Of a stretch of 64,000 bases of DNA, positions 11,867-60,647 are shown piece after piece. Location of the stretch: the IMG/VR virus record IMGVR_UViG_3300047322_001193, positions 1 to 64,000 of that record, one strand, 5' to 3'. Numbering within the stretch: position 1 is the first letter of the stretch; each line of letters starts with the position of its first letter. The notes beneath the pieces are model-generated. The model saw only the letters and a list, made by a program, of their open reading frames with translations. It searched no databases and had not been told where the DNA came from. The position numbers were made by a program, and so were the translations under genes. The DNA comes from a virus.

Positions 11867-11869
11867 TGT

Positions 11870-12935: not shown

Positions 12936-12946
12936 CTGAGGAGTGA

Positions 12947-13996: not shown

Positions 13997-13999
13997 CTT

Positions 14000-14356: not shown

Positions 14357-14358
14357 TC

Positions 14359-14859
14359 ATGGCAAAGCGAATCATTTCGCTCACCTCACTCGCGCCGACT
14401 CCCATCGCCGACGCGACCAACTTTGTCAACCAGACGTTCTTCACCGTCATCCAGGGAGGCAGCGCCTCTCAGGTCATCAACATCGTCGAGGTCTATGAAG
14501 GCGGGCTGGCGGGTACCAGCGCGCCCACCATCATGATCTCGTCAATGGACTCCACAGTAGGCGGAACCATCGCCGCTGGTGGTACCACCGACGCTCCGGT
14601 CAGCGCGGCCACAGCAGCTCTCGCGGCCCCTGTGAAGACGGGGAACGTCCAAACGACCCTGTCACAACGCTCCAGCGCACTACACATCCACAACCTCGCG
14701 CTCAACGCGTTCGGTGGAATCGTGCGCTTGAACTGGCCGCAGGATCAGCAAGCCGTGATCGTGGGTAACGCTGCCAACACGGGCGAGATGTCGATCTCCG
14801 CATTCACAGGTGGCACGTCGGGACTCATCGGCTTCCACTGCATCTATGAGCCTTCCTGA
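14359..14859 (+). CDS. structural protein candidate, 166 aa
   Basis: AAAGGAGATC precedes the start. The protein is Ala/Thr/Gly-rich and strand-rich (FFTVIQGGSASQVINIVEVY, GGTIAAGGTTDAPVSAAT, IVRLNWPQDQQAVIVGNA). It resembles small head or tail surface proteins and has the same style as 17018 and 17393 in this block. The stop comes just before the glycosyltransferase start. Confidence 0.5.
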   Translation: MAKRIISLTSLAPTPIADATNFVNQTFFTVIQGGSASQVINIVEVYEGGLAGTSAPTIMISSMDSTVGGTIAAGGTTDAPVSAATAALAAPVKTGNVQTTLSQRSSALHIHNLALNAFGGIVRLNWPQDQQAVIVGNAANTGEMSISAFTGGTSGLIGFHCIYEPS

Positions 14860-14860
14860 T

Positions 14861-25350: not shown

Positions 25351-25352
25351 TT

Positions 25353-40095: not shown

Positions 40096-40168
40096 GGGCC
40101 TGTAGCGCAGCTGGGAGCGCGCCACACTGGCAGTGTGGAGGTCGTCGGTTCGATCCCGACCAGGTCCA
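40096..40168 (+). tRNA. tRNA-Ala (anticodon GGC)
   Basis: Full cloverleaf: acceptor GGGCCTG (40096-40102) with CAGGTCC (40161-40167), D stem GCGC/GCGC, anticodon stem CCACA/TGTGG around loop CTGGCAG (anticodon GGC), T stem GTCGG/CCGAC with TTCGATC, discriminator A. The third acceptor pair is G-U, the known alanine identity element. CCA is not encoded. It lies next to the integrase block, so it may be a translation aid, or an attachment-site copy of a host tRNA gene. Confidence 0.9.
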
Positions 40169-40170
40169 CT

Positions 40171-40552: not shown

Positions 40553-40836
40553 CCGACGACGAGAAGACCGTCACGCCTCAGATGCGAAAGCAATACCGAC
40601 AGCTTGCCGAAATGATGAGGTCCGCTTTCCTGGCAGACATGTTCAATCTCAAATACGAAACCATCGAGCGCCAGTTCGGATCCGAGAAGCCGCCTGACGA
40701 CTACTGGATCTTTGCGGCTGCGCGGACCTGGGGAGAGATGCATGGGCTTCTGGAGAAGGCGGATGAGGAGGGTCGGGCGAGAGTCGTGGGGAGCCGGGCG
40801 GCGTTGAAGCTCGTCCGGCCCCAACCTGTCGATTAG
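40549..40836 (+). CDS. hypothetical protein, 95 aa
   Basis: TTG start with GGGGAGGAATCA at ideal spacing. Helical protein (PQMRKQYRQLAEMMRSAFLA; FAAARTWGEMHGLLEKADEE) without a recognised motif. It ends by overlapping the convergent end of the integrase gene by four bases. Being coupled to the arm-binding-like protein, it could be a partner in recombination control; that is inference. Confidence 0.5.
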   Translation: MTDDEKTVTPQMRKQYRQLAEMMRSAFLADMFNLKYETIERQFGSEKPPDDYWIFAAARTWGEMHGLLEKADEEGRARVVGSRAALKLVRPQPVD

Positions 40837-41978
40837 CTCAGCTTCAGTTTGGACTTTTGCGCTTCGAGGTAATCGCTGAAGCGATCCGCCGCCTGCGCCC
40901 GTGCTGTGGAGTCGAGGTGGATGTAGGTGTCCGCCATCTTGATCGATGCCCAGCCCGCCATCTGTTTCAGATCGAATGCAGACGCACCGCCCTCCACCGC
41001 ACGAGTGAGTGCCGTGTGACGGAAATCGTACAACCGGAAGCGCGGGATCGCGAGCGGCTCATTGCGCGTCCACAGACGTTTGTGTGTCGACTGGAATGAC
41101 GTGAGCGGCGTGTGGTGGAACTTGCCGTTGCGGTCGGCGGGGAACACGTGACCCGACTTCGGGCAGCCCATCCGCATCCAGCGTTCCTTGAGAATCTTCG
41201 CGAGTCCGAGCGTCATCCCTAGTTCACGCTGACGCATCTTGCCCGTCTTCATACAGCTGTCGAAGATGTAACCGTTGGTGTACTTGCCGACTGCGCCGAA
41301 GAAGACGTTCGGCCAGGTGAGCCCCGCGCAGGTGCCTGGTTCCATCCCGCTGTTGATCAGGATCGAACAGAAGTCGCGATGGTCACGGTCCACCGCCGCC
41401 ATGTAGATCGCCTCTTCCTCGAACGTGACAGAGACGCCCATGAACTCCCCTTTCGGAAACGTCGTGAACGTCGGGAGTGTGGCGATCAGCTTCCAGTCCT
41501 GCGCTTTGGTCAGGATCACGTTCAGCACGACCATGTTCTTCTTCTGGGTCTGCACCGCCAGCTTCTGTTCGCACAGCTCACCCTCGAAGGCGTCGATGAG
41601 TTCGCGGTCGATCTTGTCCAGCGTGGCGTCAGCGAGAGGCGCGAACTTGAGGATGGCTGTGATGCGCTGGCGATAGAATTCGAGCGTGCTGGGTCTCTTC
41701 TTCTTGCGGCACCAGTCCCAGAACCGGCCACCCACTTCATCATCGGCGTCGGGTAGGCGGGCGAAGTCAGCGAGCGTGGGGGCGGTCGGGAGCGGTTTCG
41801 GCTGCGCAGCTTCCTTCTTCGCATCCTCGAATTCCTGCGCGACTTTCACACGTTCGGCGGTCTCGCGCTTCAATGCGACCTTCATGTCTGTGGTGTTCAG
41901 AGAGCGGAAGATCTGCTTCCCCTCGTGCATGAACTTTGTGTAGAGCTTCGGTGAACCTTTGCGAGTGATGATTGCCAT
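40833..41978 (-). CDS. int: tyrosine-recombinase integrase, 381 aa
   Basis: Site-specific recombinase for integration of phage DNA. N-terminal arm-binding unit (residues 1-50), core-binding SAM-like domain (about 75-175), and catalytic domain. Catalytic features: K244 (in MKTGKMRQ), Y317-x-x-R320 (in RLYDFRHTAL), W343 (in QMAGWASI) and the nucleophile Y352 (in ADTYIHLD). The usual first Arg of the TGxRxxE box is replaced: GMEPGT has E213. Activity may be altered or another residue may serve. The leader carries GGACGACACC and AAAGGA precedes the ATG. Confidence 0.8.
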   Translation of the reverse strand: MAIITRKGSPKLYTKFMHEGKQIFRSLNTTDMKVALKRETAERVKVAQEFEDAKKEAAQPKPLPTAPTLADFARLPDADDEVGGRFWDWCRKKKRPSTLEFYRQRITAILKFAPLADATLDKIDRELIDAFEGELCEQKLAVQTQKKNMVVLNVILTKAQDWKLIATLPTFTTFPKGEFMGVSVTFEEEAIYMAAVDRDHRDFCSILINSGMEPGTCAGLTWPNVFFGAVGKYTNGYIFDSCMKTGKMRQRELGMTLGLAKILKERWMRMGCPKSGHVFPADRNGKFHHTPLTSFQSTHKRLWTRNEPLAIPRFRLYDFRHTALTRAVEGGASAFDLKQMAGWASIKMADTYIHLDSTARAQAADRFSDYLEAQKSKLKLS

Positions 41979-42054: not shown

Positions 42055-42282
42055 CTAATCGTTGCGGTCTTTGTTGCGCTCGATGAACGCATCCAGGTCG
42101 TCGAGATCGATCTTGGCACCACGCATATCGTTGTGCGGCCCGTCACCGGCGGGAAAGCGGATGAATGGGATCTTACCGCTCGCGATCCAGCGTCGTAACG
42201 TCCAGCGCGAGATGCCGAGGTACTCTGCAGCTTTGTTGATGCCGACGACGCGGTGGTCGGTGCGTGTTCTTACGATCTTCAT
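42055..42282 (-). CDS. excisionase-like HTH protein, 75 aa
   Basis: Residues 15-40 (INKAAEYLGISRWTLRRWIA, then SGKIPFIRF) are a MerR/HTH_17-type winged helix with the S/GxIPxxR wing, the common fold of phage excisionases (recombination directionality factors) and small regulators. It lies just upstream of the integrase in the same direction. The start at 42282 overlaps the stop of the glycosyltransferase, so it is translated as the last gene of the glycan operon. Confidence 0.7.
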   Translation of the reverse strand: MKIVRTRTDHRVVGINKAAEYLGISRWTLRRWIASGKIPFIRFPAGDGPHNDMRGAKIDLDDLDAFIERNKDRND

Positions 42283-43031
42283 GGGGTCGACTCCTCTTCG
42301 GCGGCAGGTGCGGTGGTCTGGAACAGGTCGTAATACTCTTGCGTGCCGCCGCGCACGCCCCACTTCTGATAGAAGTACTCGCGGTTGGCTTCAGCCTGCT
42401 TCATGATGCGGTCACGTTCAGCATTGTCGGCGTTCTTCACTGTCTGAGATGCGTGGTGCAGGAAAGGGAGCTCCAGCGCTTCAGCTCGAATACCCACCTT
42501 CTGCATTCGTAAGTGGTAATCCCAGTCTTCGCAGAACGCGATCTTGAAGTTCTCGTCGAATGCGCCGACGACGTGATAGGTTTCGCGGCGGATCAGGTAG
42601 CAGCTGAAGTCGGGATGGGGGCGCTTCTTATCCGGATCCGGGTCAGGGCACGCCAGCAGCTTCTCCCGATCCCGCACTCCCACCGCAGTAACGAACGGTC
42701 CGCCGTCCGCAACCAGATGCCGGTACGTGTCGGGTCTCAGCTCGACATCGTTGTTCACCACCAGTGCGTACAGCTCTTGCGGGAAGCTCTCGAAAGCGAA
42801 CTCCAATCCCCTATTCCAACTCGCTGCGACACTCATCCCCGGCCTGTTCATGAGGGTGAAGATGTCGCGCTGGGTCGACAGCCACCGACCGGTACCATCC
42901 GTCGATCCGTTATCGATGATGAGGATGTGCACACCACCCTCAATATCCTGAGCGCGGAAGGTGCGCACCGCTTCTTTGGTGAGCGATAAGTTGTTCCTTA
43001 CCGGGCATATGATCCAGTTCATCTGATCCAT
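42279..43031 (-). CDS. GT2-type glycosyltransferase, 250 aa
   Basis: GT-A fold. IIDNGSTDGTGRW (residues about 38-50) is the nucleotide-binding turn, NNDVE (93-97) the DxD-like metal site, CEDWDYHLRM (167-176) the catalytic acidic motif, and LPFLHHAS (188-195) the C-terminal His. This is the family of rhamnosyl- and other inverting transferases. Acceptor unknown. TGATG overlap with the upstream methyltransferase. Confidence 0.75.
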   Translation of the reverse strand: MDQMNWIICPVRNNLSLTKEAVRTFRAQDIEGGVHILIIDNGSTDGTGRWLSTQRDIFTLMNRPGMSVAASWNRGLEFAFESFPQELYALVVNNDVELRPDTYRHLVADGGPFVTAVGVRDREKLLACPDPDPDKKRPHPDFSCYLIRRETYHVVGAFDENFKIAFCEDWDYHLRMQKVGIRAEALELPFLHHASQTVKNADNAERDRIMKQAEANREYFYQKWGVRGGTQEYYDLFQTTAPAAEEESTP

Positions 43032-44170
43032 CACTTCACCGCCTCCATTCCTAAGATCCACCAATCTCTCGCGATATCGGCACCGGCAACCGGACGCCAG
43101 TCAAAGCCCTTCACGTACTGCCACGATGCAGCCGCTTGTAACTGGGTCGTCAGCGACTTCCAGGTGAACCCCCACTTGTGGCGGTCCGCTTCATCCCCCA
43201 TGAACGCGCCGTAGACGTTGGTGAAGTAGGTGGCGTCATCGATCTGGTGCATCAGCCAGCGCTGAGCGAGCGACTGCATGTTCGGCACAAAGACCAGCAG
43301 ACTGCCGCCCGGTTTGAGAACCTGCCACGCTTGCTTCATGAAGCCGGTGGCGTGATCGCCCCAGACGTGTTCGAGGGTGTGATGCGCCACCACCAGATCC
43401 ATCGTGCTGTCGTGAAAGTAGTGGGTGAGATCGTCCCAGGTGCCGCAGATATCGGGCTCCCACTGCGCTTGAATGTCGATGTTGATCCAGCCCTGGCCGC
43501 GATCAAACGGGCGCTGGCCCGAGCCGCAATTGAGCTTGGTGCCGTGGGGGTGGAACGACTCGATGTCACGCTTGAGTGGCTGCGTTGACCCGATGAACGC
43601 GGTGGAGTCGTTCCAGCGCCGGATCGAGGACGTGTGCAGTCCGTACTTCTCGAAGAGCGCCATCCACTCCCAGTCCGTCATCGTGCGTTCGTTCGGCTGA
43701 TCGAAATGCTTCCACCTCTCATTCGGACAGAGGAAGTAGAACTTGCCCGACGCGCCCAGCAGCTCGCGGATGTTCGCCAGCGCCGCATCCAGGTTCACGA
43801 TGTGTTCCAGTGATCCGAGCGAGACGACGTAATCGAACCTGCCACCGGTCGATATCCAGTAGTCGCGCTCTTCAATCGAGACCTGTGCGATAGCGGCCTG
43901 CGGAGCGCGTGCCCGCGCCTTGATTGCGCCGATGCCGCTGATCTCGGATCCGAAACAGGTAACGCGTTTGGTTGCCTCGGCCAGGAAGTGACCGGCACCG
44001 CACCCTACATCCAGTAATCGCAGCAGCTTGTTGAACGGCACCCCCAGATCATCGAGGTGCTGGTTGCATTCAGTGGCGGGAGTGTGCCAGCCGTCGCCCA
44101 TCGCCAGGTATTTCGCGTCGTACCAGGCAGCCAGATCAGGAGTGGATTCGATGACCTTACGATATTCCAT
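43031..44170 (-). CDS. two-domain SAM methyltransferase, 379 aa
   Basis: Two class I methyltransferase units in one chain. The first has LLDVGCGAGHFL (52-63) as motif I and SLGSLEHIV (117-125) after it. The second starts with KLNCGSGQRPF (212-222), then AHHTLEHVW (262-270) and LKPGGSLLVFVPN (285-297). The second is of the type seen in surface-sugar operons. Both look complete for SAM binding. Targets, probably sugars, are inferred from the neighbours. Confidence 0.75.
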   Translation of the reverse strand: MEYRKVIESTPDLAAWYDAKYLAMGDGWHTPATECNQHLDDLGVPFNKLLRLLDVGCGAGHFLAEATKRVTCFGSEISGIGAIKARARAPQAAIAQVSIEERDYWISTGGRFDYVVSLGSLEHIVNLDAALANIRELLGASGKFYFLCPNERWKHFDQPNERTMTDWEWMALFEKYGLHTSSIRRWNDSTAFIGSTQPLKRDIESFHPHGTKLNCGSGQRPFDRGQGWINIDIQAQWEPDICGTWDDLTHYFHDSTMDLVVAHHTLEHVWGDHATGFMKQAWQVLKPGGSLLVFVPNMQSLAQRWLMHQIDDATYFTNVYGAFMGDEADRHKWGFTWKSLTTQLQAAASWQYVKGFDWRPVAGADIARDWWILGMEAVK

Positions 44171-44733
44171 CAATCCCGTCTCCAGATACCCAGCCCGTAC
44201 GCTTGCTTGTGCTTCGTCCAACCTTTGGCGACGAACGGATCGACAGCCTCTGACACTCCACCAGACGGGTAATCGTGTGTCAGCAGATACCCACCCGACC
44301 TGATACGTGACGCGACGATCTGCAAATCCCGCTCGACAACAGGCTGATCGTGGCAGCCGTCAATGAATGCGAAGTCAATCCCGTCTGGGGTGAGCCGCTC
44401 AATATGCACCGCTGCGGCTTCGGTGGTCATATGCAGCACGATGAATGGATGCCACTCACAGCGTTCCGCGACGTTCTCCATCCACTGCTTCGCTCTGTCC
44501 TCGAACTCGAACCACGGGTCGACATGAATGGTCATGAAGTTCTTAGCCGCAGCGACCTGCGAGATCAGACTCGACGAGCGCCCGACATCGCACCCGATTT
44601 CGATCAGGGTTGATTCATCCGGCAGTTCGTACAGCACGTCGAACATCGCCTGGCACTCGACAATCTGCAGGATATTCACGACGCTGATGGGGGAAGTGAT
44701 GCTCATCACCTCGTCGTAAGTGGGTACGTTCAT
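44170..44733 (-). CDS. class I SAM methyltransferase, 187 aa
   Basis: Motif I reads LIEIGCDVGRSS (43-54), followed by a helix and MTIHVDPWF as the acidic strand. IDFAFIDGCHDQPVVERDLQ is the motif of the Methyltransf_24 group, which often carries G-x-H/D-x-Y after D-G-x-H. This family O-methylates sugars, for example in rhamnose and mycinose biosynthesis. The start at 44733 is chosen because GGAGG precedes it by nine bases and it overlaps the upstream stop (ATGA). Confidence 0.7.
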   Translation of the reverse strand: MNVPTYDEVMSITSPISVVNILQIVECQAMFDVLYELPDESTLIEIGCDVGRSSSLISQVAAAKNFMTIHVDPWFEFEDRAKQWMENVAERCEWHPFIVLHMTTEAAAVHIERLTPDGIDFAFIDGCHDQPVVERDLQIVASRIRSGGYLLTHDYPSGGVSEAVDPFVAKGWTKHKQAYGLGIWRRD

Positions 44734-45458
44734 AATGGCCATCCTCCAATCGCGTCCCACACCGGCTTCATCACTCGATCTTTGCCTGTGACGGGATCGC
44801 TGTATCCGCCATTGAAATGGATCGCGCAGGGGAAGGTTTGAGTCAGCGCGTTGTAGATCCGTCCGTCCATCACCTGCAGTTCATCGGCGAGATCGCCATT
44901 ACCTGCCGACTGAAAGACCTGGCACTCGGTATCGAGCACGAACTGCGGTCCGAACTTCCCGTCAACGAACGCTTGCACCATCCAGCCCTGCTCGTTCTGA
45001 TCCTCGCCCACTTTGTCCATGTAGTCGTCGCGCAGCATCTGCCACATCGGAATCAGGTAGTCGAGCTCGCCCATGAACTGGCCACTGCCCAGCCAGCGAT
45101 AGTGGTGGCCGGGATCCGGGAAGCGGTCAGCCAACCAACAACGCGGATAGCATTCGGTCTCGGTCGCCATCAGGCAGCCCGGTGCACCGACGTAGAAGTA
45201 CTTGAGCTTGATCTCCATCAGCCCGCTGAGGAAGAAGCTGTCGCGCCCATCGGTGTAGAGGATGTGCGTTGCGCCGGTGCGCTTCATCTGCTGGAAGTGT
45301 TCCAGCATCTGCGTGATCTTGATACGCGGCCAGTCGGTATAGGTCTGGCCCAGCCCGTACGGGTGCAGTGGAATGGCGAAGCGGTCGCAGCTCTTCTGCA
45401 GACGCCAGATCGGCCAGGCAGTCTCGAACACGCAGGCTGTGATCGCGGCGAGCGTCAC
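44730..45458 (-). CDS. PLOD/procollagen-type glycosyltransferase, 242 aa
   Basis: Contains ILYTDGRDSFFLSGLMEIKL (DxxD at residues 70-73) and then ATETECYPRCW, and WLGSGQFMGELDYL (GSGQFMG at 124-130). This order, D-x-x-D, then E, then the GSGGFIG box, is that of the GT domain in procollagen lysyl hydroxylase/glucosyltransferases and of viral relatives. It would transfer a hexose, possibly to a protein side chain. Family assignment rests on these motifs. ATGA overlap with both neighbours. Confidence 0.65.
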   Translation of the reverse strand: MTLAAITACVFETAWPIWRLQKSCDRFAIPLHPYGLGQTYTDWPRIKITQMLEHFQQMKRTGATHILYTDGRDSFFLSGLMEIKLKYFYVGAPGCLMATETECYPRCWLADRFPDPGHHYRWLGSGQFMGELDYLIPMWQMLRDDYMDKVGEDQNEQGWMVQAFVDGKFGPQFVLDTECQVFQSAGNGDLADELQVMDGRIYNALTQTFPCAIHFNGGYSDPVTGKDRVMKPVWDAIGGWPL

Positions 45459-45997
45459 GGCTTCCTCCGGTACGCCAGAGTTTGCACGTGCCCGCCATCC
45501 CAGCCCGCACAGACGCGTTTCACGGTGTCGAACACGTCGGGGAAGTTGTGGGGCTCGTAGTCGTGGAAGACCGCCCAGCCACCACTCTTGAGCCGCGGTA
45601 ACCAGACGGCACAGTCCAGTTCAATCCAGGGACGCTCATGATTGGCGTCGATGAACACCAGATCGATGCTCTCCAGCGGGAAGTAGGCTTTGGCCACATT
45701 AGAATCGCCGACGATGGTCAGGTAGTCCTCGACGCCGATGCGCTTCATGTTGGCCTGGAACTTATCGAGATAGGGTGTGCCGTCGAAGTCCGGGCCGAAG
45801 ATATCCACACAAGCGAGGTGGAAGAATTTGGTCTTCATCAGCTGACCGGGCACGCTGGTCGAGCGCCCGTGATAGATACCGACCTCCACAACACTGGCAT
45901 TGTCGGGCAGGTTCGAGAGGATCGCGTGATACTGCGACGCCTCTTCAAATGAGAACCAGCCTTCAATAGTGGCGGTGAGATTCCAGAACTCGCTCAT
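45455..45997 (-). CDS. class I SAM methyltransferase, 180 aa
   Basis: Motif I VVEVGIYHGRSTSV (36-49), acidic strand LACVDIFGPDF and the phrase IDLVFIDANHERPWIELDCA (D-A-N-H plus a following acidic run) place it in the Methyltransf_24 group, like the gene at 44170 but clearly a distinct protein. The conserved FHDYEPHNFPDV near the end is part of the family. Probably a sugar O-methyltransferase. Coupled to both neighbours by ATGA overlaps. Confidence 0.7.
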   Translation of the reverse strand: MSEFWNLTATIEGWFSFEEASQYHAILSNLPDNASVVEVGIYHGRSTSVPGQLMKTKFFHLACVDIFGPDFDGTPYLDKFQANMKRIGVEDYLTIVGDSNVAKAYFPLESIDLVFIDANHERPWIELDCAVWLPRLKSGGWAVFHDYEPHNFPDVFDTVKRVCAGWDGGHVQTLAYRRKP

Positions 45998-46716
45998 TGC
46001 TGGATCACCCCTTTGTATCGCGTCATCTTGTGCGCCCCGACTGCCGGATCTCCTGCGGTGTTGGTGAGCCCACAGGCATACACCACCTCAGGGAATAGTG
46101 AGCCGACGAAGAACCCGGCATTGACGATCTTCTGGCAGAAGGCGAAGTCTTCACTCATCCCAGTACCCGGCCCGTGTGCGTCGAGCGGTCCGTACTCGTG
46201 CCAGGTCTCCCAATGCATCAGGTGCGAATAACCCGACACCGCATCATGAGCCCGCAGATGCAGCACCTCACCCGCTTCAGTCTCGATCTGGTGCGCGACG
46301 TTCCATTGATGGAAGGGGTGGGTGCTGCCCGCCAGCACACGGTAGCCGAGACCCCACGACGTGACCCAGGCGTCGAGCATCTTCTTCAGCCAGCCGGGTG
46401 TGAAGAACACGTCGTTGTCGGAGAGGTAAATCATACGGGTCGGACCCCAGTACTTCTCGGCCCAGTACACCCCGAGATTGCGCACCTGGCCGGTGATGCC
46501 ACGGGATTGGGTAACGCGCAGGATCGTGTAGTTCTTCATGCCCAGGAGTCGCTGCTGGATGCAGTTGTGGGTCGGCTCGTCACTCTCGTCATCAACAATG
46601 GTGAGATAGAAGGCGTCGTGCGGTGTGTTGAGATAGAGACTGTTGATCGATTGCATGGTGAGTCGCAGCCGACCCTTCACGAGCATGATGATATTGGTCT
46701 TGTCGGTGGTCTTCAT
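45994..46716 (-). CDS. GT2-type glycosyltransferase, 240 aa
   Basis: GT-A fold with TIVDDESDEPTHN as the sugar-nucleotide turn, YLSDNDVFFTPGWL (DND) as the metal site, and a late acidic motif MSEDFAFCQKI. It resembles GT2 enzymes that add sugars to polysaccharide or protein. The acceptor is unknown. It stands between the radical SAM gene and a methyltransferase with four-base overlaps on both sides. Confidence 0.7.
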   Translation of the reverse strand: MKTTDKTNIIMLVKGRLRLTMQSINSLYLNTPHDAFYLTIVDDESDEPTHNCIQQRLLGMKNYTILRVTQSRGITGQVRNLGVYWAEKYWGPTRMIYLSDNDVFFTPGWLKKMLDAWVTSWGLGYRVLAGSTHPFHQWNVAHQIETEAGEVLHLRAHDAVSGYSHLMHWETWHEYGPLDAHGPGTGMSEDFAFCQKIVNAGFFVGSLFPEVVYACGLTNTAGDPAVGAHKMTRYKGVIQQ

Positions 46717-48182
46717 TCGGGTTCACTCGTTCTCAACATGAACGGCGGCAGCTTGCCCATACCCATGCTGGCTTCGTATCGACGAGCCGCCGCCGCGGAG
46801 TAGTAAGGAATTTGGAGCTTTGTCCTTACTTCTCGTTCTACCCGGTCCCGCAGTCGCACAATGTCATCCGCGCTGAGATGATCCGTGTAGACGTAACTCT
46901 TGTAACCGCCATCCGGATCGCCTTTGTAGTAGTCAGCGATCTGGGTGTAATCGAGATCGATGGAATAGAGGAAGTCGCCGTTCACCTCAAAGCACCAGAT
47001 GTCGGTGCTAAGAACCCGACGTGATCGGTCGTAATATGGCGAGCCGGGATATGCCGTGATGATCGTGACATCGAAGTCGGCAGGTTTGACGGCGAGCAAC
47101 CAATCCTCAGTCTGCTGAACTGTGGTTTCGCTCTCTCCGGGATGGCCGAGACTCATCAGCGCCTTCATCTCCAGGCCGTACTTGTGCGAAATCTCCATCG
47201 CAATCGTGTTGTCGGTGAGAGTGGCGTTCTTGTTGATGTTCTTCAGAATGCGCGGTGAGCCGCTCTCAAAGCCGCACATGATTCTCCGGAATCCGGCCCG
47301 ATACATCGCTTCAGCTTGTGTGGGGGTGAAGAGCTCCGACTTCACAAACCCCCGGCATCTGAACCCGACACCCAATTCACACTGCAGATCATCGATGGCG
47401 TGCATCAATTCCAGCATCTGGCGGTTCACATTCAACTCGTCGTCGAAGAACATGAAGCCGTGGATGCCGTGCACTTCATAGATGTGCCGCATCTCCGCGA
47501 TCACGTTCTCTGTCGGGCGCAGGCGCACTCTTCTCAACATCGCTGAGTCCCGGCCAGCGCAGAAGTTGCAGCCGAACGGACAGCCTAATTGCCCGATGAG
47601 ACCGGTGACCGGTACCCCATCAATGGTGTAGTGGTACGACTTCAGATCGACCAGGTGCCGGGCAGGAAAGGGCAGCTCACCCAATCGCTTGCCGGTGAGA
47701 AAGAAGAGCGTGTTGGGATCGTCGGCGTCAATCACACCCGCTTCCGTTTGGATAGCGAGATCAATCGCGTCCTCACCATCGCCCGCGACAATCACATTGA
47801 AGAGAGATTCGAGCTGGTCGGCAGCCCCCAATGCCCGGCTACTGGCGTGCTTCTTAACCGCTGCATAAACGAGCGTGGGATGGGGGCCGCCGAGAATCAG
47901 TTTGGCATCCGGCAGCGCGGCCCGGATGGTCTTCGCGAGTATCGTGACGGCAGGCATCTGGGGTGTCGTAGCCGTCATCGCGAAGATCCGGGCCTCGCTG
48001 CGGGCGCAGTGGTCGAGGGTGGCGTCCTGGTAGTTCACGACGCCGTTCAGATCGAGGTGTTCAACCGGATATCCCGCCTGCTCGGCCACTGCAGCCACTT
48101 TCAGTATACCGAGTGCGACAAATACTCTCTCGTCGAGTAAGAAGATCGAGGGTGGTGTGATGAAGCAGACGCGTGGCTTCAT
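46713..48182 (-). CDS. radical SAM enzyme with B12-binding-like N-domain, 489 aa
   Basis: Residues 1-190 have a Rossmann-type cobalamin-binding-like domain (VCFITPPSIFLLDERVFVAL; LILGGPHPTLV), though the usual DxHxxG histidine is not seen. C201-x3-C205-x2-C208 (in LGCPFGCNFCAG) binds the 4Fe-4S cluster of radical SAM enzymes. The remaining barrel carries FMFFDDELN, GFESGSPRIL and LGHPGESETTVQ, all typical. Such B12-type enzymes often methylate unactivated carbon or phosphorus, or cut rings, during sugar and antibiotic synthesis. A host copy of a surface-sugar gene is possible. Confidence 0.8.
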   Translation of the reverse strand: MKPRVCFITPPSIFLLDERVFVALGILKVAAVAEQAGYPVEHLDLNGVVNYQDATLDHCARSEARIFAMTATTPQMPAVTILAKTIRAALPDAKLILGGPHPTLVYAAVKKHASSRALGAADQLESLFNVIVAGDGEDAIDLAIQTEAGVIDADDPNTLFFLTGKRLGELPFPARHLVDLKSYHYTIDGVPVTGLIGQLGCPFGCNFCAGRDSAMLRRVRLRPTENVIAEMRHIYEVHGIHGFMFFDDELNVNRQMLELMHAIDDLQCELGVGFRCRGFVKSELFTPTQAEAMYRAGFRRIMCGFESGSPRILKNINKNATLTDNTIAMEISHKYGLEMKALMSLGHPGESETTVQQTEDWLLAVKPADFDVTIITAYPGSPYYDRSRRVLSTDIWCFEVNGDFLYSIDLDYTQIADYYKGDPDGGYKSYVYTDHLSADDIVRLRDRVEREVRTKLQIPYYSAAAARRYEASMGMGKLPPFMLRTSEPE

Positions 48183-48538
48183 CAGTTGGTCCTGTGCTCA
48201 TCGCAGCTGGTCTCTTCACCACAACTACAATCTCGGAATCCCTGCAGCCTGGAGAGCGCATTCATGATGGACTCACGCGCCACATTCAGTGCCAGCTGGG
48301 GTGTCGGGATCATGTCGATCTTCACCTTGTCGAGCACGATGCCGACCGTCACGACCAGGCCGTCGTTGCGCTGGCCCTGCAGTTCCGCTTTGTAAGATGG
48401 CGGGATGCGCGGATCGATGGACTGGCTGAATGCGCTCATCCCGATCTGCTTCCAGCCACGATTCGCCCGCGCCATTTCGGAAATGATGCGAGAGTTCGGG
48501 ATGTGCCCGTTCGACTTCTTGATCTTAGGCTTGCCCAT
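48182..48538 (-). CDS. hypothetical protein, 118 aa
   Basis: Starts MGKPKIKKSNGHIPN and contains IPTPQLALNVARESIMNALS. The C-terminus has a Cys/His run (CSCGEETSCDEH) that could bind a metal. The start overlaps the end of the upstream glycosyltransferase by 14 bases. It has no sugar-enzyme motif and is the one unrecognised gene inside the glycan operon. Confidence 0.5.
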   Translation of the reverse strand: MGKPKIKKSNGHIPNSRIISEMARANRGWKQIGMSAFSQSIDPRIPPSYKAELQGQRNDGLVVTVGIVLDKVKIDMIPTPQLALNVARESIMNALSRLQGFRDCSCGEETSCDEHRTN

Positions 48539-49286
48539 CGCCAGCGCACCTCCAGGGCAGCACATCGCGGTAGTTGTCGTACACCCAGCGATGCGAGACT
48601 TCGTGAATCTCCTGATCGCTTAACCCTTCATGTTTGGCTGCCCACTCGATGTACTGCGGCGTCGTCGATGTACGCCCACCGAAGTGATGACAGTCAATTC
48701 CAACCATTCGCACACGATAGCCGTAACGATGAGCCTCAGCACAGATCGCATAGTCGTAGCAGTGAAATCCCCCAGGAACAGCAGGCCAGCCGCCACACTT
48801 GTCGAGAAGAGCGCGGCGTACAACAAGAGCAAAGCCGTCCAGCACCGCCACGTCGCAACTACCTGCGAACCGGGTGCCGTGCGCTTCGGCGTCGCGGGTG
48901 TTGGAGAGATAGTGACCCCGAGCGAGTTGCTGGAGCTGATAGGGCCGACGATAGATATCAGGCGTGCCATGATCGAGACCTCCACCGAACCCCACCACTC
49001 CCACTGCGGGGTCGTCGAATTCGCCTAAGATGCGCAGATCCCAGCCGCGTTGATAGACCTCCACGTCGTCGTGGATGTAAGCCAGGATCGGTTCCGTTGT
49101 CTGTTCGTAGAGCGCTTGATAACTCCCGATGACACCGAAGTTGAGCTCGGGCGTGTTGCGCATGAAGTGAAGCTGGTAATCCTTCGTCGCAGCGGAATGC
49201 AGATGCAGAGTCGTGACCGGTGCCGGGATCTCGGGATCGGGTACCATCGTGGCGATGCACAGCCCGAGCTTGTCGTGTACGTTCAT
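48525..49286 (-). CDS. GT-A glycosyltransferase, 253 aa
   Basis: Contains ILAYIHDDVEVYQRGWDLRI, where HDD/DDVE is the DxD metal site, then VVGFGGGLDHGTP and VLDGFALVVRRALLDKCGGW, the acceptor-side loop of GT2 enzymes, and IDCHHFGGRT, the late His motif. Start at 49286 in ATGA overlap with the GT-B gene upstream. It seems a distinct branch from the 42279 and 45994 enzymes. Substrate unknown. Confidence 0.7.
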   Translation of the reverse strand: MNVHDKLGLCIATMVPDPEIPAPVTTLHLHSAATKDYQLHFMRNTPELNFGVIGSYQALYEQTTEPILAYIHDDVEVYQRGWDLRILGEFDDPAVGVVGFGGGLDHGTPDIYRRPYQLQQLARGHYLSNTRDAEAHGTRFAGSCDVAVLDGFALVVRRALLDKCGGWPAVPGGFHCYDYAICAEAHRYGYRVRMVGIDCHHFGGRTSTTPQYIEWAAKHEGLSDQEIHEVSHRWVYDNYRDVLPWRCAGDGQA

Positions 49287-50443
49287 GCGAGCCCATCCAG
49301 GAACCACTTCTTCCAGCGCGACGGCCACAACAGCTTCCAGTCGAGGTGCTCCACACTGCTGCGGCACATCGCCGGATCATGACCGTGACACAGCACGTTC
49401 TCGATCTCGACAGCGAAGTCGATGGGGCGGTAGACGGGACGCAGGCAATTGTGGGGTGTATCGAGGCGCTCGGCGACAGGATCCACTAACCAGACGGTGT
49501 TGGGGATCAGCTCCGCAGCACCACCATACGATCCGGTAATGCACGGCACCCCGCACGCCAGCGACTCCACTACTGGATATCCGAACCCTTCACCCAGACT
49601 GGGCAGCATCGTCACGTCACATGCAGAGTAGTAGTAACTCAGCTCGGTATCGCTCAGCACCGACGACTGGGTGACAATCGTCCGGTTCTGCAGATCGAAG
49701 TCAGCGGCGAGTGCCTGGATATCCCAGCTCCTCAGCAGCGTATCGACATGCGCCCAGAAGATGAGATTGGGATGGGTCTCGCGCAGCTTCGCGATGGTTG
49801 CGAACGCCAGCCCCCAATCCTTACGTGCTTGGTTGGTCATGACGCAGCCGACCACCAGATCATCCGCACGCGCTCCGAGTGCCATCCGAGCGGCGACACG
49901 ATCTCGCGGGGTGAAGACGTCCAGGTTCATTCCGTGCGGGATCCATTCCACTTCATTGCCGGTCGACTGCAGGACCACCTCAGCACCGAAGATGCCGTAC
50001 GCCAGGGTGCGGTTATAGCCCGCCAGCGTCTGGCAGCTCATGGTTGTGAGCCGCTTCCCTACTCCATATGAGTCGATAGGAAAGTAGCCCCAGCGCTGAA
50101 ATCTCCCTGACCGTAGGAACTCGCCCAGCGCGCCGTCAATACCGACAGGATTAGCGAACCAGTGCAGGCGGGAAGGATCCCAGATCGAGAAGATGATGCC
50201 CTTCTGCTCGCCTGCGAAATCCCGCCAGGTCGACTCGATATAGCGCTCGCCCCACTGCGCCGATTCCGGGAAGTTGAGGTTCGGGAAGGGTAACTGGAAT
50301 GAGCCGACGCCGCCTCGCCCAAGATACCCCACACGGAACTGTGGCAACCCGGCAACGAGCGAAGCCAGGTCGCGCCCAATCCGTGCCAGTCCCGTGTGGA
50401 GGTTCGGGGAGTCGCCGAGGAAGAGTATGGGGATCGGTTGCAT
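49283..50443 (-). CDS. GT-B (GT4-type) glycosyltransferase, 386 aa
   Basis: Two Rossmann halves: N-terminal PILFLGDSPNLHTGLARIGR (Gly-rich acceptor loop), C-terminal half beginning LVVGCVMTNQARKDWGLAFA. The donor-binding motif EGFGYPVVESLACGVP (E-x7-E) near residue 280 and the helix VEIENVL follow the GT4 pattern. GT4 enzymes are retaining transferases that build polysaccharides. It is the second gene of the operon, overlapping the previous one by TGATG. Confidence 0.8.
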   Translation of the reverse strand: MQPIPILFLGDSPNLHTGLARIGRDLASLVAGLPQFRVGYLGRGGVGSFQLPFPNLNFPESAQWGERYIESTWRDFAGEQKGIIFSIWDPSRLHWFANPVGIDGALGEFLRSGRFQRWGYFPIDSYGVGKRLTTMSCQTLAGYNRTLAYGIFGAEVVLQSTGNEVEWIPHGMNLDVFTPRDRVAARMALGARADDLVVGCVMTNQARKDWGLAFATIAKLRETHPNLIFWAHVDTLLRSWDIQALAADFDLQNRTIVTQSSVLSDTELSYYYSACDVTMLPSLGEGFGYPVVESLACGVPCITGSYGGAAELIPNTVWLVDPVAERLDTPHNCLRPVYRPIDFAVEIENVLCHGHDPAMCRSSVEHLDWKLLWPSRWKKWFLDGLA

Positions 50444-50808
50444 CAGTCTGCACCTTTCATTTCAGTAACGGACACATACGGTGCGCCGGGCTCACGGGGT
50501 GTAGTGGCCGCCTCAATCGTCTTGACCGGCACGCCCAGTTCAACGAGCCGCTCTTTACTCAGCCGCCCACCCTTACCCGAATAACCCAGCGTGATACGAT
50601 GGAAGCCGAATTTGACGCTCTTGACGTCTGCGGTCGCCAGCATGGCACCGATCTCCAGGTTCAGCTCCGCGAGTTCGGACTCGATAGCGTCCTGCTGATA
50701 CTTGAGTTCGATACGCCGCGCTGCCAGCTTCTCGAAGTCGTTCTGGACGAGATATTGCGACTCGGACCATTCCGGTGCTGGCGGCTGAGAATTCGGTACA
50801 AATGGCAT
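50443..50808 (-). CDS. coiled-coil protein at head of glycan operon, 121 aa
   Basis: A helical region (DFEKLAARRIELKYQQDAIE, then SELAELNLEIGAML) with heptad spacing is followed by a beta part (VKFGFHRITLGYSGKGGRL) and a short helix (KERLVELGVPVKTIEAA). The layout resembles small phage proteins of the Siphovirus Gp157 group and the gene at 4388. It may be unrelated to glycans and simply be the last replication-associated gene. It is first in the transcript from the 50809-50924 promoter region. Confidence 0.5.
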   Translation of the reverse strand: MPFVPNSQPPAPEWSESQYLVQNDFEKLAARRIELKYQQDAIESELAELNLEIGAMLATADVKSVKFGFHRITLGYSGKGGRLSKERLVELGVPVKTIEAATTPREPGAPYVSVTEMKGAD

Positions 50809-50924: not shown

Positions 50925-53717
50925 TCATTTGAGCCCACCCCAGGTCTTTGCGAACGCACCCTTCGCACCAATCGGGATCATCAGCTTCACCGCTTCCTGC
51001 AGTTCGTTGCGGATGAGAACATCAGCGACATCAGCGATATCTTCGTCCATCTCGAAGATTAGCTCGTCGTGAATTTGTAGTATCGGCTCGATGTAATGGC
51101 TCTCACTCCACAACTGCGGCAGCACACGCTCCCAGATCCCTTTCATGCCGAATTTGAAGATCTCCTGCGCTGTGGTCTGGATGTCGTGATTGAGACAGAC
51201 ACGTTCCGTCTCCGATCTCAAACGGTTGTTGAAGGAATTCATCGCGGGCAGGTATCGAATGCGCCCGAACATCGAACGCACATACGCATTCTGACGGGCT
51301 TCGGACTTCTTCTCTTCCATCAACCGGCGCACGCCAGGATAGGCGTCGACCAGGTACGCATCGATCATCGCTTTGCACTCAACTTCACTGCGGTCGATCC
51401 CCCGCAGCTTCATCTGTCCCTGAAGCCCCTGCGAGGTGAGGCCGTAGACAATGCCGAAGCCGATACTCTTCGCACTGTCCCGTTGCCAGGTGCCTTTGCC
51501 GACCTGATCCATAGGGAGTCCGAACACGAGAGATGCAGTCTTCTGGTGAATGTCCTCGCCTGAGAGGAAGATGTTGATCAGTGTCGGGTCTTCACTTCGA
51601 TGCGCCAGCACTCGCATCTCGATCTGATCGAGATCCCAGGAGCCCAGCACACACCCGTCTTTGGCGACGAAGCCGTCACGGATCGCTTTGCCCAGCTTCT
51701 TGCCACCCACTTCACGTTGCGAGCGGGCTGGGATTGCCATCAGGTTAGGTTCGCTGCATGCCAACCGTCCACTCGGTACGCCGGTGATGCGGAGTTTGGG
51801 GTGGATCCGCCCGTCCTGCTTCATCCACTTGCCGAGCCTGTCGGTGTAAGTTCCCTTCATCTTCGACAGCTCGCGGTAGTCAGCGATCAGTGCCAGCACG
51901 GGATTGTTATCGAGCATCCGCAACGCTTCGATAGTGGTGTCATCAGTAGAGGGTTGCTTCGAGTCAGGGTTGTAACGCTGGACCGGCATCTTCAGGACGC
52001 TGAACAGAAGGTTCGCGACCTGGAGGGGTGAATTGGGATTGAGATCGTAGCCGATCTCTTTACGGATCTGCGCCAGACACGCCTTCTTCTCAATTTCGAG
52101 GTCACGCCCGAGCTCTTTGAAGTACTCCGCGTCGACCTTGAAACCGATGTGCATCATGCGGTCGACCATCGGAATGACCGCGATGTCGAGGTTGTACGCG
52201 TCGGTGAGCCCCATATCTTCGATGCGCTGCTTGAGAATGGGATAGATCACCCAGGTATCGTCGGCATCACCAGCGGAATAGTTGGTCGCCTTCTTACGCC
52301 CCTCCGGACCAAACACCGTTTCGAGCGCATCCAGGCCCGCTTCCGGCATCGCACCAAACATCAGCGCCGCTGCACCGGTCTGGTCGGGCAGATCCTCCTC
52401 GACATCCTCCCAACGCTTACGAGGGTCTTTGGCGGTCTTGGGATCCGGGAAGAGGTGAATGATATCGGGCGGCGCATTCGCACCAGTGAGCGCGGCGTAG
52501 GCTTTGCGCGGGGTTCGACACTCGATCCAACCAGTACGTGTCTTGTTGTACCTGCCGACCGTGATGCCGAGTGCGGTCAGCTCCTTCTTCAGCGCCGTCA
52601 TCTCTTTCTTGTCACGAGTGCGAGTGCTCAGAATCTCGCCCTTGTGCACGCCGAGAATCCCTTCAATGCGCCGGTTCAGCGACTGCGGGCTATAGATCCT
52701 GGGCTCCTCATCCTCGAAGTACAACTCCTCCGCACTCGGACCCCAGTCGTGATCGGCAATCTTCTCCAGCCAATCCAGCGCCAGCTCGCGACTCGCGGGG
52801 CCGATCACTTCCAGGTAACTCTCACGCCGCAGCCCACGGTGCTGGTATGCCAGTTCCTTGAGCCCAACCACCGAGACGCGGAGCAAGGACGCCATCACCA
52901 TCGTGTCGTCGAAGTTGGTGACCGTGACCTGCATGTCTCGGAGTACTGCCAGATCGTGAAGGGAGTTGTGCAGGATCACGCGGGAGTGCTCGATTTGACG
53001 CCGGAACTCGAAGAGCGGGACACGATCATTCACCCGGATAACGTGAGCGCGCCGCGGCTGGTTCGAGAAGGAGAGCCCCCAGGGGTTGCCCTTCAGACCT
53101 TCCGTATCGACTGCTATGAGTGGTGGGTGATGCAGCCAGTCCACATCACTGGTCGAGGTCGCTTCCAGATAGATGTAGGTAGCGTCGGGAGATTCCCACA
53201 CCGGCGGCAGCAGCTCACCTTCCAGAACCTTACGTGCTTGGTCAAAGGCGTACCAGATCTGTGGCTGCAGGTCCGGCTCGTACATGCGCAGGTGGTTCGG
53301 GATCACAATTGCCGGGCGGATCAGTTCAGGTGAGGTGAAGTAGTGGGGCAGTCCGATCACTTCACCCAGATCCACATCCTTACCCAGGAATCGTTGGGTG
53401 GGCATACGCCCCAGCGTCATGATGACTTCGGGCTGGCACATCGAGAGCTGGAAAGAGAGCTCCTCCTCATCGATGTCCTTCTCAGTGATTCCAGAACGGT
53501 TCTCCACCACTTTCAGGCAGAGGTTGGTGAGGAAGACCCGCTGACGACTCCAGCCCAGCACCCAGCGCAGATAGCGGGTCAGCTCGTTGCCCGTAACGGC
53601 TCGCGGGTGGAATGGTACGCCCGTCTTCGATTCCACTTCACCAGGATGTTCACCGATGATGAGCAGGCGAGCGGGCCAGGGTCCTTGACCTGGAACGATG
53701 CTGAATGTGCCACTCAT
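50925..53717 (-). CDS. DNA polymerase A with N-terminal UDG-like domain, 930 aa
   Basis: Residues 1-170 resemble family-4/5 uracil-DNA glycosylases (LLIIGEHPGEVESKTGVPF; VFLTNLC; PEVIMTLGR), but the last active-site His motif is degenerate. The 3'-5' exonuclease has D204/E206 (IAVDTEG), D255 (NSLHDL) and Y480...D484, with an extra about 170 residues (305-475) between the second and third motifs. The polymerase has motif A D695 (WDLDQIEMR), motif B R746/K750/F754/Y758, and motif C HDE (883-885). It is the replicative polymerase. UDG-PolA fusion is known in SPO1-like phages. Confidence 0.85.
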   Translation of the reverse strand: MSGTFSIVPGQGPWPARLLIIGEHPGEVESKTGVPFHPRAVTGNELTRYLRWVLGWSRQRVFLTNLCLKVVENRSGITEKDIDEEELSFQLSMCQPEVIMTLGRMPTQRFLGKDVDLGEVIGLPHYFTSPELIRPAIVIPNHLRMYEPDLQPQIWYAFDQARKVLEGELLPPVWESPDATYIYLEATSTSDVDWLHHPPLIAVDTEGLKGNPWGLSFSNQPRRAHVIRVNDRVPLFEFRRQIEHSRVILHNSLHDLAVLRDMQVTVTNFDDTMVMASLLRVSVVGLKELAYQHRGLRRESYLEVIGPASRELALDWLEKIADHDWGPSAEELYFEDEEPRIYSPQSLNRRIEGILGVHKGEILSTRTRDKKEMTALKKELTALGITVGRYNKTRTGWIECRTPRKAYAALTGANAPPDIIHLFPDPKTAKDPRKRWEDVEEDLPDQTGAAALMFGAMPEAGLDALETVFGPEGRKKATNYSAGDADDTWVIYPILKQRIEDMGLTDAYNLDIAVIPMVDRMMHIGFKVDAEYFKELGRDLEIEKKACLAQIRKEIGYDLNPNSPLQVANLLFSVLKMPVQRYNPDSKQPSTDDTTIEALRMLDNNPVLALIADYRELSKMKGTYTDRLGKWMKQDGRIHPKLRITGVPSGRLACSEPNLMAIPARSQREVGGKKLGKAIRDGFVAKDGCVLGSWDLDQIEMRVLAHRSEDPTLINIFLSGEDIHQKTASLVFGLPMDQVGKGTWQRDSAKSIGFGIVYGLTSQGLQGQMKLRGIDRSEVECKAMIDAYLVDAYPGVRRLMEEKKSEARQNAYVRSMFGRIRYLPAMNSFNNRLRSETERVCLNHDIQTTAQEIFKFGMKGIWERVLPQLWSESHYIEPILQIHDELIFEMDEDIADVADVLIRNELQEAVKLMIPIGAKGAFAKTWGGLK

Positions 53718-54445
53718 GATCGCTTCTGCTTCCAGATCTCTTCCACTACACCCGCCGCGATGCCTTTGCCGATGCCGGTGATCTTGCGCCACTCCTCGAC
53801 AGGCGCGAGGATCATGTCGACCACACTCGTGTAGTGTTGCTCGACAGCTTGAGCACGCTTCCAGCCGACGCCTTTCAACTGTGCCGCCATGCGTCGGAGT
53901 AGTGATGTGGGTAGGAGTGGCGGCTCGCCCGAGTAGTCGAACGCGCAGCCAGAGCGGTGTTCATCGAACGTCTTGTCGGTCCACCAATGGTGAAGATTCG
54001 AGATGCAGCGCGCCGTCTCGTTCTGGTCGTAGGTGCGCCGCACATGGACGTTGTAGCGATTCTCCATGGTGGTCAGAAACCCGTCGAGATCGCGATACAT
54101 CCAGCGTTTGGCACCGAACTCGGCACTGCGCCAGCCGCTCTTACCTGGCACCTGCAGCACACCGGTTTGTGGATCCGGGCGATAGCGACCCTCCACCACG
54201 AGATAGACGCGGTGATAGTCGCGCAGCAGTCCCGGGAGTTGATGGCCTGCGAATCTCCCGTCCACCATCGAGCACAGCATGTCGGCGAGCGCTTTCCTCT
54301 CGACACCGATCATCAGCGGGACGCCTTCCGGGCCATTTCCCAGGAACATCGCGTCACCGAACTGCAATCGGCTCAATTTGGCCTGCTGTGGGGTGAAGAA
54401 CCGCATCAGCTCGCGACTTCCGACTCTGTCGTCCAACAAGATCAT
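53714..54445 (-). CDS. ERCC4/XPF-type nuclease with HhH, 243 aa
   Basis: ILLDDRVGSRELMRFF opens the fold. GD (G30 D31) and VERKALAD (E49-R50-K51 and D55) complete the ERCC4 signature GD-Xn-ERKxxxD, the metal-dependent active site for cutting branched DNA. The end has two helix-hairpin-helix units (LKGVGWKRAQAVEQHY; ITGIGKGIAAGVVEEI). The start at 54445 fits the family better than 54478 and has GGAAG upstream. It overlaps the polymerase start (ATGA) and probably processes replication or recombination intermediates. Confidence 0.8.
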   Translation of the reverse strand: MILLDDRVGSRELMRFFTPQQAKLSRLQFGDAMFLGNGPEGVPLMIGVERKALADMLCSMVDGRFAGHQLPGLLRDYHRVYLVVEGRYRPDPQTGVLQVPGKSGWRSAEFGAKRWMYRDLDGFLTTMENRYNVHVRRTYDQNETARCISNLHHWWTDKTFDEHRSGCAFDYSGEPPLLPTSLLRRMAAQLKGVGWKRAQAVEQHYTSVVDMILAPVEEWRKITGIGKGIAAGVVEEIWKQKRS

Positions 54446-59552: not shown

Positions 59553-59581
59553 AGTACAGCCACAAAATCTAGTGTTGTCAG
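59553..59581 (-). promoter_or_regulatory. promoter of the replication operon CTGACA-N17-TGTACT
   Basis: Minus-strand -35 CTGACA (59576-59581) overlaps the stop of the terminase nuclease gene; 17-bp spacer; -10 TGTACT (59553-59558). The palindrome CTGTAGTACAG covers the -10. Downstream are TGTAGTCT near 59530 and AGACGACACC ending at 59505. The remaining gap (59411-59552) holds no gene. Confidence 0.55.
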
Positions 59582-60429
59582 TAGGGATCTTCCGCAATTT
59601 CGGAGAAGCGCTCTTCCCACTGCTCGAACATGCGATCAGAGCTGATATCGGATTGCTGCCAGTTGGTGGGGACGGAGCCGACTTCGACCCGAGAATGGCT
59701 GTCCGTCTCGATCTGCGAGTTCCAGTCGTGGGCCGCCCACACTGCCATGAGAAGTGCGCGCATGCGGTCGTCGTGAGCGCCATACGCGGCTTTGGCGGCC
59801 ATCTTGATAGGATCCTGCACGCAATCGGTCATCTCCTCCACAAAGTAGTCGCTGCGGATGATGATGCCGCCACGATTGATGTGTCGTGAGCCGCGGATCC
59901 AGAGATCGCGCACGGATTTGGGTGATGCGGTCCAACCCAGCACGTTGGTCGGTTTGGTGGTCATGGAATCGAGGTATTTCCAGACGAAATGGTTGGTGTA
60001 GCCGTGCGCGTTGATCATCTTCCGTAATGTGAGGAGTCCCGGTCCGGGATAGACCTCGATGATGCAGAGACACTGCTCGTCATCACTCTGACCGCTGTAG
60101 AGGCGACCCAGCACGTTTGCGACGTCTGCCAGGTCCTCAGGGTCGATGGGAGCCGCGTATTCGCACACCTGGACGTCAGGTTTGCCCATTCGACCGACTT
60201 TGATGATCTCGATAGCGCCATTATCGGTCTTGGTGTCGTCTTCGGTTCTGAGCGTGCGATCCCAGTTGGTGATGCCGACAGTCGGGTCGATTCCCATCAC
60301 ATAGGTTGCTCGCGGGTTGGGTTCTTCAAACATCCAGCAGATTCCACGCGGATCCTGGTCGAGCATGGTGCTGGGCAGCAGCTCGAGATGGTTGGTGCCC
60401 TGGATTGTGTAGCCGGTGGGTCGGCTCAT
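59578..60429 (-). CDS. terL: large terminase, nuclease domain as a separate protein, 283 aa
   Basis: RNase-H-like nuclease half of a phage large terminase. ATYVMGIDPTVG has the first Asp (D48), CIIEVYPG the Glu (E125), and GAHDDRMRALLMA the last Asp (D220/D221). The N-terminal GICWMFEEPNPRATY is the linker strand that in one-piece terminases connects to the ATPase domain. Here the ATPase is a separate gene (60644) and a small gene lies between, all with ATGA overlaps. This protein cuts packaged DNA. Confidence 0.75.
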   Translation of the reverse strand: MSRPTGYTIQGTNHLELLPSTMLDQDPRGICWMFEEPNPRATYVMGIDPTVGITNWDRTLRTEDDTKTDNGAIEIIKVGRMGKPDVQVCEYAAPIDPEDLADVANVLGRLYSGQSDDEQCLCIIEVYPGPGLLTLRKMINAHGYTNHFVWKYLDSMTTKPTNVLGWTASPKSVRDLWIRGSRHINRGGIIIRSDYFVEEMTDCVQDPIKMAAKAAYGAHDDRMRALLMAVWAAHDWNSQIETDSHSRVEVGSVPTNWQQSDISSDRMFEQWEERFSEIAEDPY

Positions 60430-60647
60430 CGTTCGCTCCACCATCCCAGGCGCACCGACTTCGAGAAGCAGGTGAGCCAGAGACCGGTAAAGAGCTTGGT
60501 CTCACCTTGCTGGTAAGCTCTCCGGTAGAAACCAATGGACATCAGAACGAAATGGCGAGCATCGATCAAAGGAACGCGCAGCCAGCTCGACCACATACCA
60601 TCCCGATAAGACCAGGCGATCCATCCCACATCCGGTGAGTACTTCAT
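60426..60647 (-). CDS. small gene between the two terminase halves, 73 aa
   Basis: Aromatic-rich protein (DVGWIAWSYRDGMWSSWLRV; then VLMSIGFYRRAYQQGETKLF and SKSVRLGWWSER). Starts at 60647 with the ATG overlapping the ATPase stop and ends overlapping the nuclease start. No family recognised. It may bind one of the two halves or hold them together. Alternatively it is an insertion with no role. Coding is supported by the two exact overlaps and the uniform composition. Confidence 0.5.
   Translation of the reverse strand: MKYSPDVGWIAWSYRDGMWSSWLRVPLIDARHFVLMSIGFYRRAYQQGETKLFTGLWLTCFSKSVRLGWWSER

Follow-up and report, generated by a model that had tools for sequence, protein, structure and literature searches.

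The DNA studied here, referred to as the window, comprises positions 1 to 64,000 of the IMG/VR virus record IMGVR_UViG_3300047322_001193, a linear record of 65.7 kb. Its minus strand carries, from 50443 to 42279, a gene cluster encoding five glycosyltransferases (GTs), three methyltransferase proteins and one B12-binding radical SAM enzyme (Table 1). Families were assigned by scanning the cluster proteins with Pfam, PHROGs and NCBIfam profiles, which bore out the enzyme classes proposed in a first-pass annotation of this DNA and identified the GT-A enzyme at 44730 as being of the GT_PLOD type. The GT set consists of one GT-B enzyme, three GT2-type GT-A enzymes and the collagen-type GT_PLOD, and four methyltransferase domains are spread over the three methyltransferase proteins, MT3 having two. 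The cluster is part of a run of 12 consecutive minus-strand genes (50808 to 42055), in which all 11 junctions overlap by 1, 4 or 14 nt, mostly accompanied by a Shine-Dalgarno-like stretch. This agrees with the single chain of stop/start overlaps predicted earlier, a chain that also holds orf127. Because of these junctions, start codons should be moved for GT_A3 (49286), orf127 (48538), MT2 (44733), MT3 (44170/44173), GT_A1 (43031/43034) and xis (42282).

Table 1 Genes of the glycan cluster and its flanks in the window, with profile matches (E, E-value; HTH, helix-turn-helix).
Feature	Position	Strand	Description and matches
orf121	50443..50808	-	small protein upstream of cluster; weak PHROG match phrog_434
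GT_B	49283..50443	-	GT4-like GT-B glycosyltransferase; PF00534, E 7e-15; PHROG 2170 glycosyltransferase
GT_A3	48525..49286	-	GT-A glycosyltransferase; PF13712, E 3e-10
orf127	48182..48538	-	between GT_A3 and radical SAM gene; no family match
radical SAM enzyme	46713..48182	-	B12-binding, class B architecture; PF04055, E 1e-20; PF02310, E 1e-11
GT_A2	45994..46716	-	GT2-type glycosyltransferase; PF00535, E 1e-5
MT1	45455..45997	-	Methyltransf_24 methyltransferase; PF13578
GT_PLOD	44730..45458	-	collagen (LH3/PLOD) GT family; PF25342, E 2.5e-20
MT2	44170..44733	-	Methyltransf_24 methyltransferase; PF13578
MT3	43031..44173	-	two-domain methyltransferase; C-terminal GSGQRPF domain
GT_A1	42279..43034	-	GT2-type glycosyltransferase; PF00535, E 1.5e-8; also PF10111
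xis	42055..42282	-	excisionase-like HTH protein; PF12728, TIGR01764; ATGA-coupled to GT_A1
int	40833..41978	-	tyrosine integrase; PF00589; about 76 nt beyond xis; outside conserved cluster

The GTs of the cluster show no mutual similarity by BLAST, and the set is therefore not the product of simple gene amplification; MT1 and MT2 share 27% identity. Among the PDB profile relatives of GT_B is B736L of chlorovirus NY-2A (3oy2), and GT_PLOD matches best to R699 (9dyt) and next to the collagen glucosyltransferase LH3. Hydropathy analysis detected no multi-span membrane protein in the window's cluster or in those of its relatives, hence no flippase, polymerase or Gtr-like protein. Single marginal segments occur in the radical SAM enzyme and in a few proteins of the relatives, mostly within soluble enzyme families. 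The lack of a multi-span protein speaks against conversion of the gtr type and makes a cytosolic acceptor likely.

To place the cluster in its phage lineage, we combined several protein searches. The radical SAM protein matched 33 viral contigs (L001-L033), most at 50-60% identity, of which L011 and L026 retain most of the cluster. GT_B yielded five more carriers and L026 again, and a GT_B alignment added six previously unseen contigs; GT_A3, when used as the only query in a viral scan, gave no matches. A search with the major capsid protein (MCP) returned 16 contigs. Twelve large records of the lineage were found in this way, a sample not chosen by GTs, and seven of them carry GT_B. The other five are without GT_B, GT_A3 and GT_A1. 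Four of these keep methyltransferase-like matches only, and the fifth (G016) has a lone GT_PLOD-like gene (L096, 7488-8138) following orf121, at the site held by the cluster in the window. In another genome of the lineage (G019), orf121 precedes GT_B as well. A near-DNA search among isolated phages gave no match.

Gene order was compared by hand-entered orders across 16 loci, mostly from genomes for which this MCP was demonstrated. GT_B stands first in all 16; GT_A3 takes second place in 14, and 14 end with GT_A1. In 12 loci GT_A1 comes straight after the GSGQRPF methyltransferase domain, which in several relatives is a separate gene rather than the C-terminal part of MT3. Were the orders random, GT_B would be first in all 16 loci with a probability of ~7e-13, a value to be read with the loci being related and not independent. 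The middle of the cluster is variable: L082 has an epimerase, L026 and L036 have FkbM methyltransferases, and L026 further contains, within its cluster (10628-15090), a transaldolase, a SIS-domain isomerase, a GHMP kinase, a nucleotidyltransferase and an epimerase, together with a UDPG_MGDP dehydrogenase domain. These genes would provide a phage-encoded synthesis of a heptose-type nucleotide sugar.

In a presence table of 17 genomes, MCP, portal and other structural genes were found in all 17, GT_B in 12, GT_A3 and GT_A1 in 11, polA in 8, the helicase in 4 and the window's xis/int in 1. As searches with GT_B or the radical SAM gene had supplied some of these genomes, only the count of 7/12 given above is free of that choice. 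The cluster thus accompanies the structural core far more than the replication genes or xis/int. Its composition is like that of the rest of the genome (GC 0.588 vs 0.582-0.596; GC at third codon positions 0.736 vs 0.727-0.728). A recent single insertion with broken genes, which the first-pass annotation had named together with membership in unrelated families as possible objections, is ruled out by this uniform composition and by the open frames throughout, and the profile scans gave a consistent set of enzyme families. The order that the same annotation had suggested looking for in other contigs is kept across the 16 loci and, with the enzyme content, backs its idea of a methylated glycan. 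The operon is real, conserved and unusually large for a phage glycan operon.

The radical SAM enzyme combines a B12-binding Rossmann domain with a following radical SAM barrel, the class B architecture, and its CxxxCxxC motif (residues 201/205/208) is invariant in all 16 aligned phage sequences. An AlphaFold2 model (mean predicted local distance difference test score (pLDDT) 86; predicted template modelling score (pTM) 0.88) is structurally closest to AprD4, TsrM, MgmA, TokK, CysS and OxsB; AprD4, MgmA and TsrM are also the best profile matches. AprD4 is the nearest solved relative, with ~17-18% identity over the structural alignment. The top NCBIfam score was obtained for HpnJ (TIGR03471), at 95.4 bits vs a cut-off of 577.6. 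Several enzymes of this architecture act on sugars: AprD4, a dehydratase that shares the architecture of class B methyltransferases, deoxygenates a sugar of paromamine, GenK and GenD1 C-methylate gentamicin intermediates (PMC5461906), and HpnJ finishes the hopanoid cyclitol ether, starting from a glucosamine adduct (PMC12583986). As the window protein scores far below every NCBIfam equivalog cut-off, none of these functions can be assigned to it.

A scan of a genome collection returned 176 relatives, the best 80 of which share ~53-60% identity with the window protein, many of them from Elusimicrobiota, Omnitrophota, Nitrospirota and Patescibacteria. Neighbours of the bacterial genes include GT2, GT4-like and GT9 glycosyltransferases, nucleoside diphosphate (NDP)-sugar genes, epimerases, DegT aminotransferases and asparagine synthases. 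The phage contigs with relatives, which come from diverse metagenomes, often carry NDP-sugar genes too, and several place the gene near GDP-mannose dehydratase, DegT or GT10/GT11 genes. In a phylogenetic tree the phage sequences are strongly grouped (5 label changes vs 27.6 in shuffles), and the window protein joins that of L026 with 99% support in the Shimodaira-Hasegawa-like approximate likelihood ratio test (SH-aLRT). Judging from these sequence relationships and neighbourhoods, the enzyme belongs to a glycan-tailoring family of bacteria and phages, in which we assign it no particular reaction. Within the phage lineage it is an accessory: 4 of the 17 genomes have the gene (G000, G006, G007 and, in a divergent form, G024), and the contig fragment L218 gave an extra match. 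Searches of the open-access literature turned up no account of a B12-type radical SAM enzyme within viral sugar operons of this sort. The novelty of the cluster lies in its size, its ordered conservation and, within that literature, this enzyme.

At its downstream end the operon runs into xis and int, as the first-pass annotation had pointed out; the adjacency is true for the window and local to it. The window's xis was not found in the other lineage genomes among the 17 compared, and none of the other carriers checked has the cluster immediately next to an integrase. Since GT_A1 runs directly into convergent structural genes in several relatives, xis and int appear to be a local addition between GT_A1 and these genes. 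Of 14 carriers, a tyrosine integrase occurs in five and a serine recombinase in one; eight gave a match to neither. Thus, the proposed link to lysogeny finds no support, and lysogenic conversion tied to xis/int is unsupported outside the window genome. As a side observation, a complete tRNA-Ala (GGC) gene (40096-40169, plus strand) adjoins the integrase; a second partial copy of at least 14 nt was not found within the window.

From the enzyme families, the operon structure, the conserved order and the co-inheritance with structural genes, we infer by analogy that this is probably a phage-borne cytosolic operon by which a methylated glycan, further tailored by radical chemistry, is built on a virion protein. 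Assembly would take place in the host cytosol, where the five GTs would add sugars one after another from host nucleotide sugars and, in some relatives, from phage-made ones. The likely acceptor would be a residue in one of the abundant proteins of the virion, for instance the MCP, a head-tail protein or a spike. GT_B and the conserved GT-A enzymes GT_A3 and GT_A1 would form the core of the pathway, and GT_A2, GT_PLOD and the methyltransferases would vary the chain. O-Methylation of sugars, probably as caps, would be the task of the PF13578 and Methyltransf_23-type enzymes. The B12-type enzyme would perform a radical tailoring of a sugar or nucleotide sugar, most likely a C-methylation or a removal or rearrangement of a hydroxyl group, in an AprD4-like or HpnJ-like manner. 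Once complete, the glycan would protect the particle or adjust its properties. Taken further, the phage's own B12-dependent enzyme might make a sugar unavailable from the host (C-branched, deoxy or ring-altered), which would be displayed on the virion by means of five GTs and four methyltransferase domains. Such radical chemistry in a viral structural glycan is a tentative idea that we regard as somewhat doubtful.

Known viral systems illustrate how such an operon could work. Mycobacteriophages encode glycosyltransferases that attach sugars to their capsid and tail-tube subunits, which shields the particles from antibodies (PMC12619734, PMC12363180). The virion of one of them, Che8, is glycosylated, and the genes gp108-gp110 are involved according to the accounts of Freeman et al. 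2023 given in PMC12619734 and PMC12363180. Our family scan of the Che8 sequence describes gp108 as a fusion of GT2 and PF13578 methyltransferase domains, gp109 as GT2-like and gp110 as GT25-like. Both phages have a short overlapping GT operon that combines GT2 with a PF13578 methyltransferase domain. Unlike the window's cluster, that of Che8 has three genes, lacks a radical SAM enzyme, a GT-B enzyme and GT_PLOD, and has known glycoproteins. The window does have one mark of an operon for virion-protein glycosylation, namely several cytosolic glycosyltransferases within one phage operon. In chlorovirus PBCV-1, methylated capsid glycans are made in the cytoplasm by a GT-methyltransferase protein (PMC7826918). 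This pathway (A064R, A111/114R; B736L of NY-2A) resembles the window's cluster in being virus-encoded and cytosolic and in pairing GTs with O-methyltransferases, which in the chlorovirus cap the capsid glycan (PMC7826918); the acceptor of B736L is unsettled (PMC9614988). PBCV-1 differs in being a eukaryotic algal virus with multidomain proteins. Its capsid glycan pathway has, to our knowledge, no radical SAM enzyme. The Che8 and chlorovirus parallels are arguments about how the cluster may work and do not prove membership in either system.

Several observations weigh against a virion glycan. MCP alignments of carriers and non-carriers revealed no distinguishing feature and hence no acceptor signal, and no structural protein tracks the carriers in the presence table of 17 genomes. 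Most carriers in the lineage lack the radical SAM gene, which is hence not essential to the module. The window's GTs show no clear sequence homology to gp108 or gp110 of Che8: in hhalign comparisons of GT_B and GT_A1, GT_B did not match gp108 and GT_A1 did not match gp110, with a weak local match of GT_A1 to gp109. Direct homology to the Che8 virion GTs was thus not found for these two proteins, which have only Pfam families in common with them. Finally, peripheral GTs without membrane segments are typical of envelope-polysaccharide assembly too, and host lipid-linked intermediates would be compatible with the cluster.

The last point leads to the alternative that the enzymes act on an envelope polysaccharide of the host, either during infection or in the lysogen, and thereby block superinfection or change the serotype. 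The first-pass annotation had left the choice between virion and lysogen surface open, and we consider the surface unlikely and favour the virion. The bacterial relatives of the radical SAM enzyme do sit among envelope-glycan genes, the operon ends in xis and adjoins int in the window, and the phage has a beta-helix tailspike, so that its receptor may be a polysaccharide. Pelagimyophage cassettes also come to mind, in which a hypervariable region holds GTs, NDP-sugar genes and radical SAM proteins, and which are read in that study as modifying the host O-chain (PMC7029224). Some of the contigs found here with the radical SAM enzyme have similar suites of sugar genes. This likeness is one of gene content; the phages and the gene order differ. 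The integrase counts in carriers argue in the opposite direction, as do the position of the cluster elsewhere, away from int, and its presence across genomes, which goes with that of structural rather than lysogeny genes. The gtrABC serotype-conversion cassettes likewise have GT genes close to int/xis, but the window's cluster encodes no GtrA-, GtrB- or GtrC-like membrane protein, nor a Wzx- or Wzy-like protein, flippase, polymerase, lipid-carrier glucosyltransferase or other multi-span protein, and is not tied to int in relatives.

Decoration of a modified base in the phage genome, as a defence against restriction, appears improbable. Virus-encoded GTs can hypermodify DNA (Pyle 2024, as cited in PMC12619734), polA is found just upstream of the operon, and PHROG labels relatives of MT1 and MT2 as 'DNA methyltransferase'. 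Yet a thymidylate synthase-like gene (PF00303) was absent in 8 carriers in searches that detected the controls, the other window proteins that were scanned included no known enzyme for modifying nucleotides or bases, and many relatives keep the cluster without a recognisable relative of the window's polA. Tet_JBP (PF12851) gave no match, in a scan whose positive control gave no match either. Five GTs, PF13578 methyltransferases and the heptose-type NDP-sugar genes of L026 would also be unusually elaborate for a DNA glycan. It is still harder to credit that the cluster tailors a small molecule or lipid, such as an antibiotic-like or signalling glycoconjugate, in place of a macromolecule. Natural-product clusters often include B12 radical SAM and TylF-like methyltransferases, and AprD4 is the nearest solved relative of the window's enzyme, but no scaffold-making enzyme for a polyketide, peptide or aminocyclitol was seen in the relatives examined, and the recurring core is the GT series.

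In the literature consulted, glycosylation of phage virions is known mainly from mycobacteriophages with a few glycosyltransferases. The lineage described here, which is uncultured, retains a larger glycan operon of ordered structure, in which the GT core is stable and the tailoring genes are exchangeable. One of the latter encodes the B12-type radical SAM enzyme, with close relatives in numerous phage contigs and bacterial genomes. Should the glycan sit on the particle, the operon would offer a way to test against what phage coats are shielded in the environment and a source of enzymes for unusual sugars.

The cluster is flanked upstream, on the same strand, by genes for a family A DNA polymerase (polA), an ERCC4 nuclease, a Sak4-like protein and a helicase. 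The N-terminal part of the polymerase (50925-53792, minus strand) resembles by eye a uracil-DNA-glycosylase-type domain (LLIIGEHPGE...). Downstream, the integrase is followed by plus-strand structural genes for the portal, the MCP, a tail-fibre-like protein and tailspikes. Two consecutive tailspike-like genes (22912-25350 and 25311-27626, plus strand) have N-terminal blocks in common at 59-71% identity; beta-helix/pectate-lyase-like domains occur in the first, and the second has no Pfam family match. When 396 genomes were sampled from the phylum to which an Acidobacteriota genome belongs, two had relatives of the MCP (40% and 30% identity), located on short contigs that give no host call, and the 141-kb carrier G009, inspected for host genes, had mixed content that likewise gave none. 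Small plus-strand genes, about 20 in number, occupy the first 9900 nt of the window, and very few of them have relatives in the lineage or in Pfam. Two minus-strand genes (59578-60444 and 60644-61873) encode proteins that have no Pfam or PHROG match and are kept in all 17 lineage genomes; their position and conservation suggest that they are parts of the terminase.

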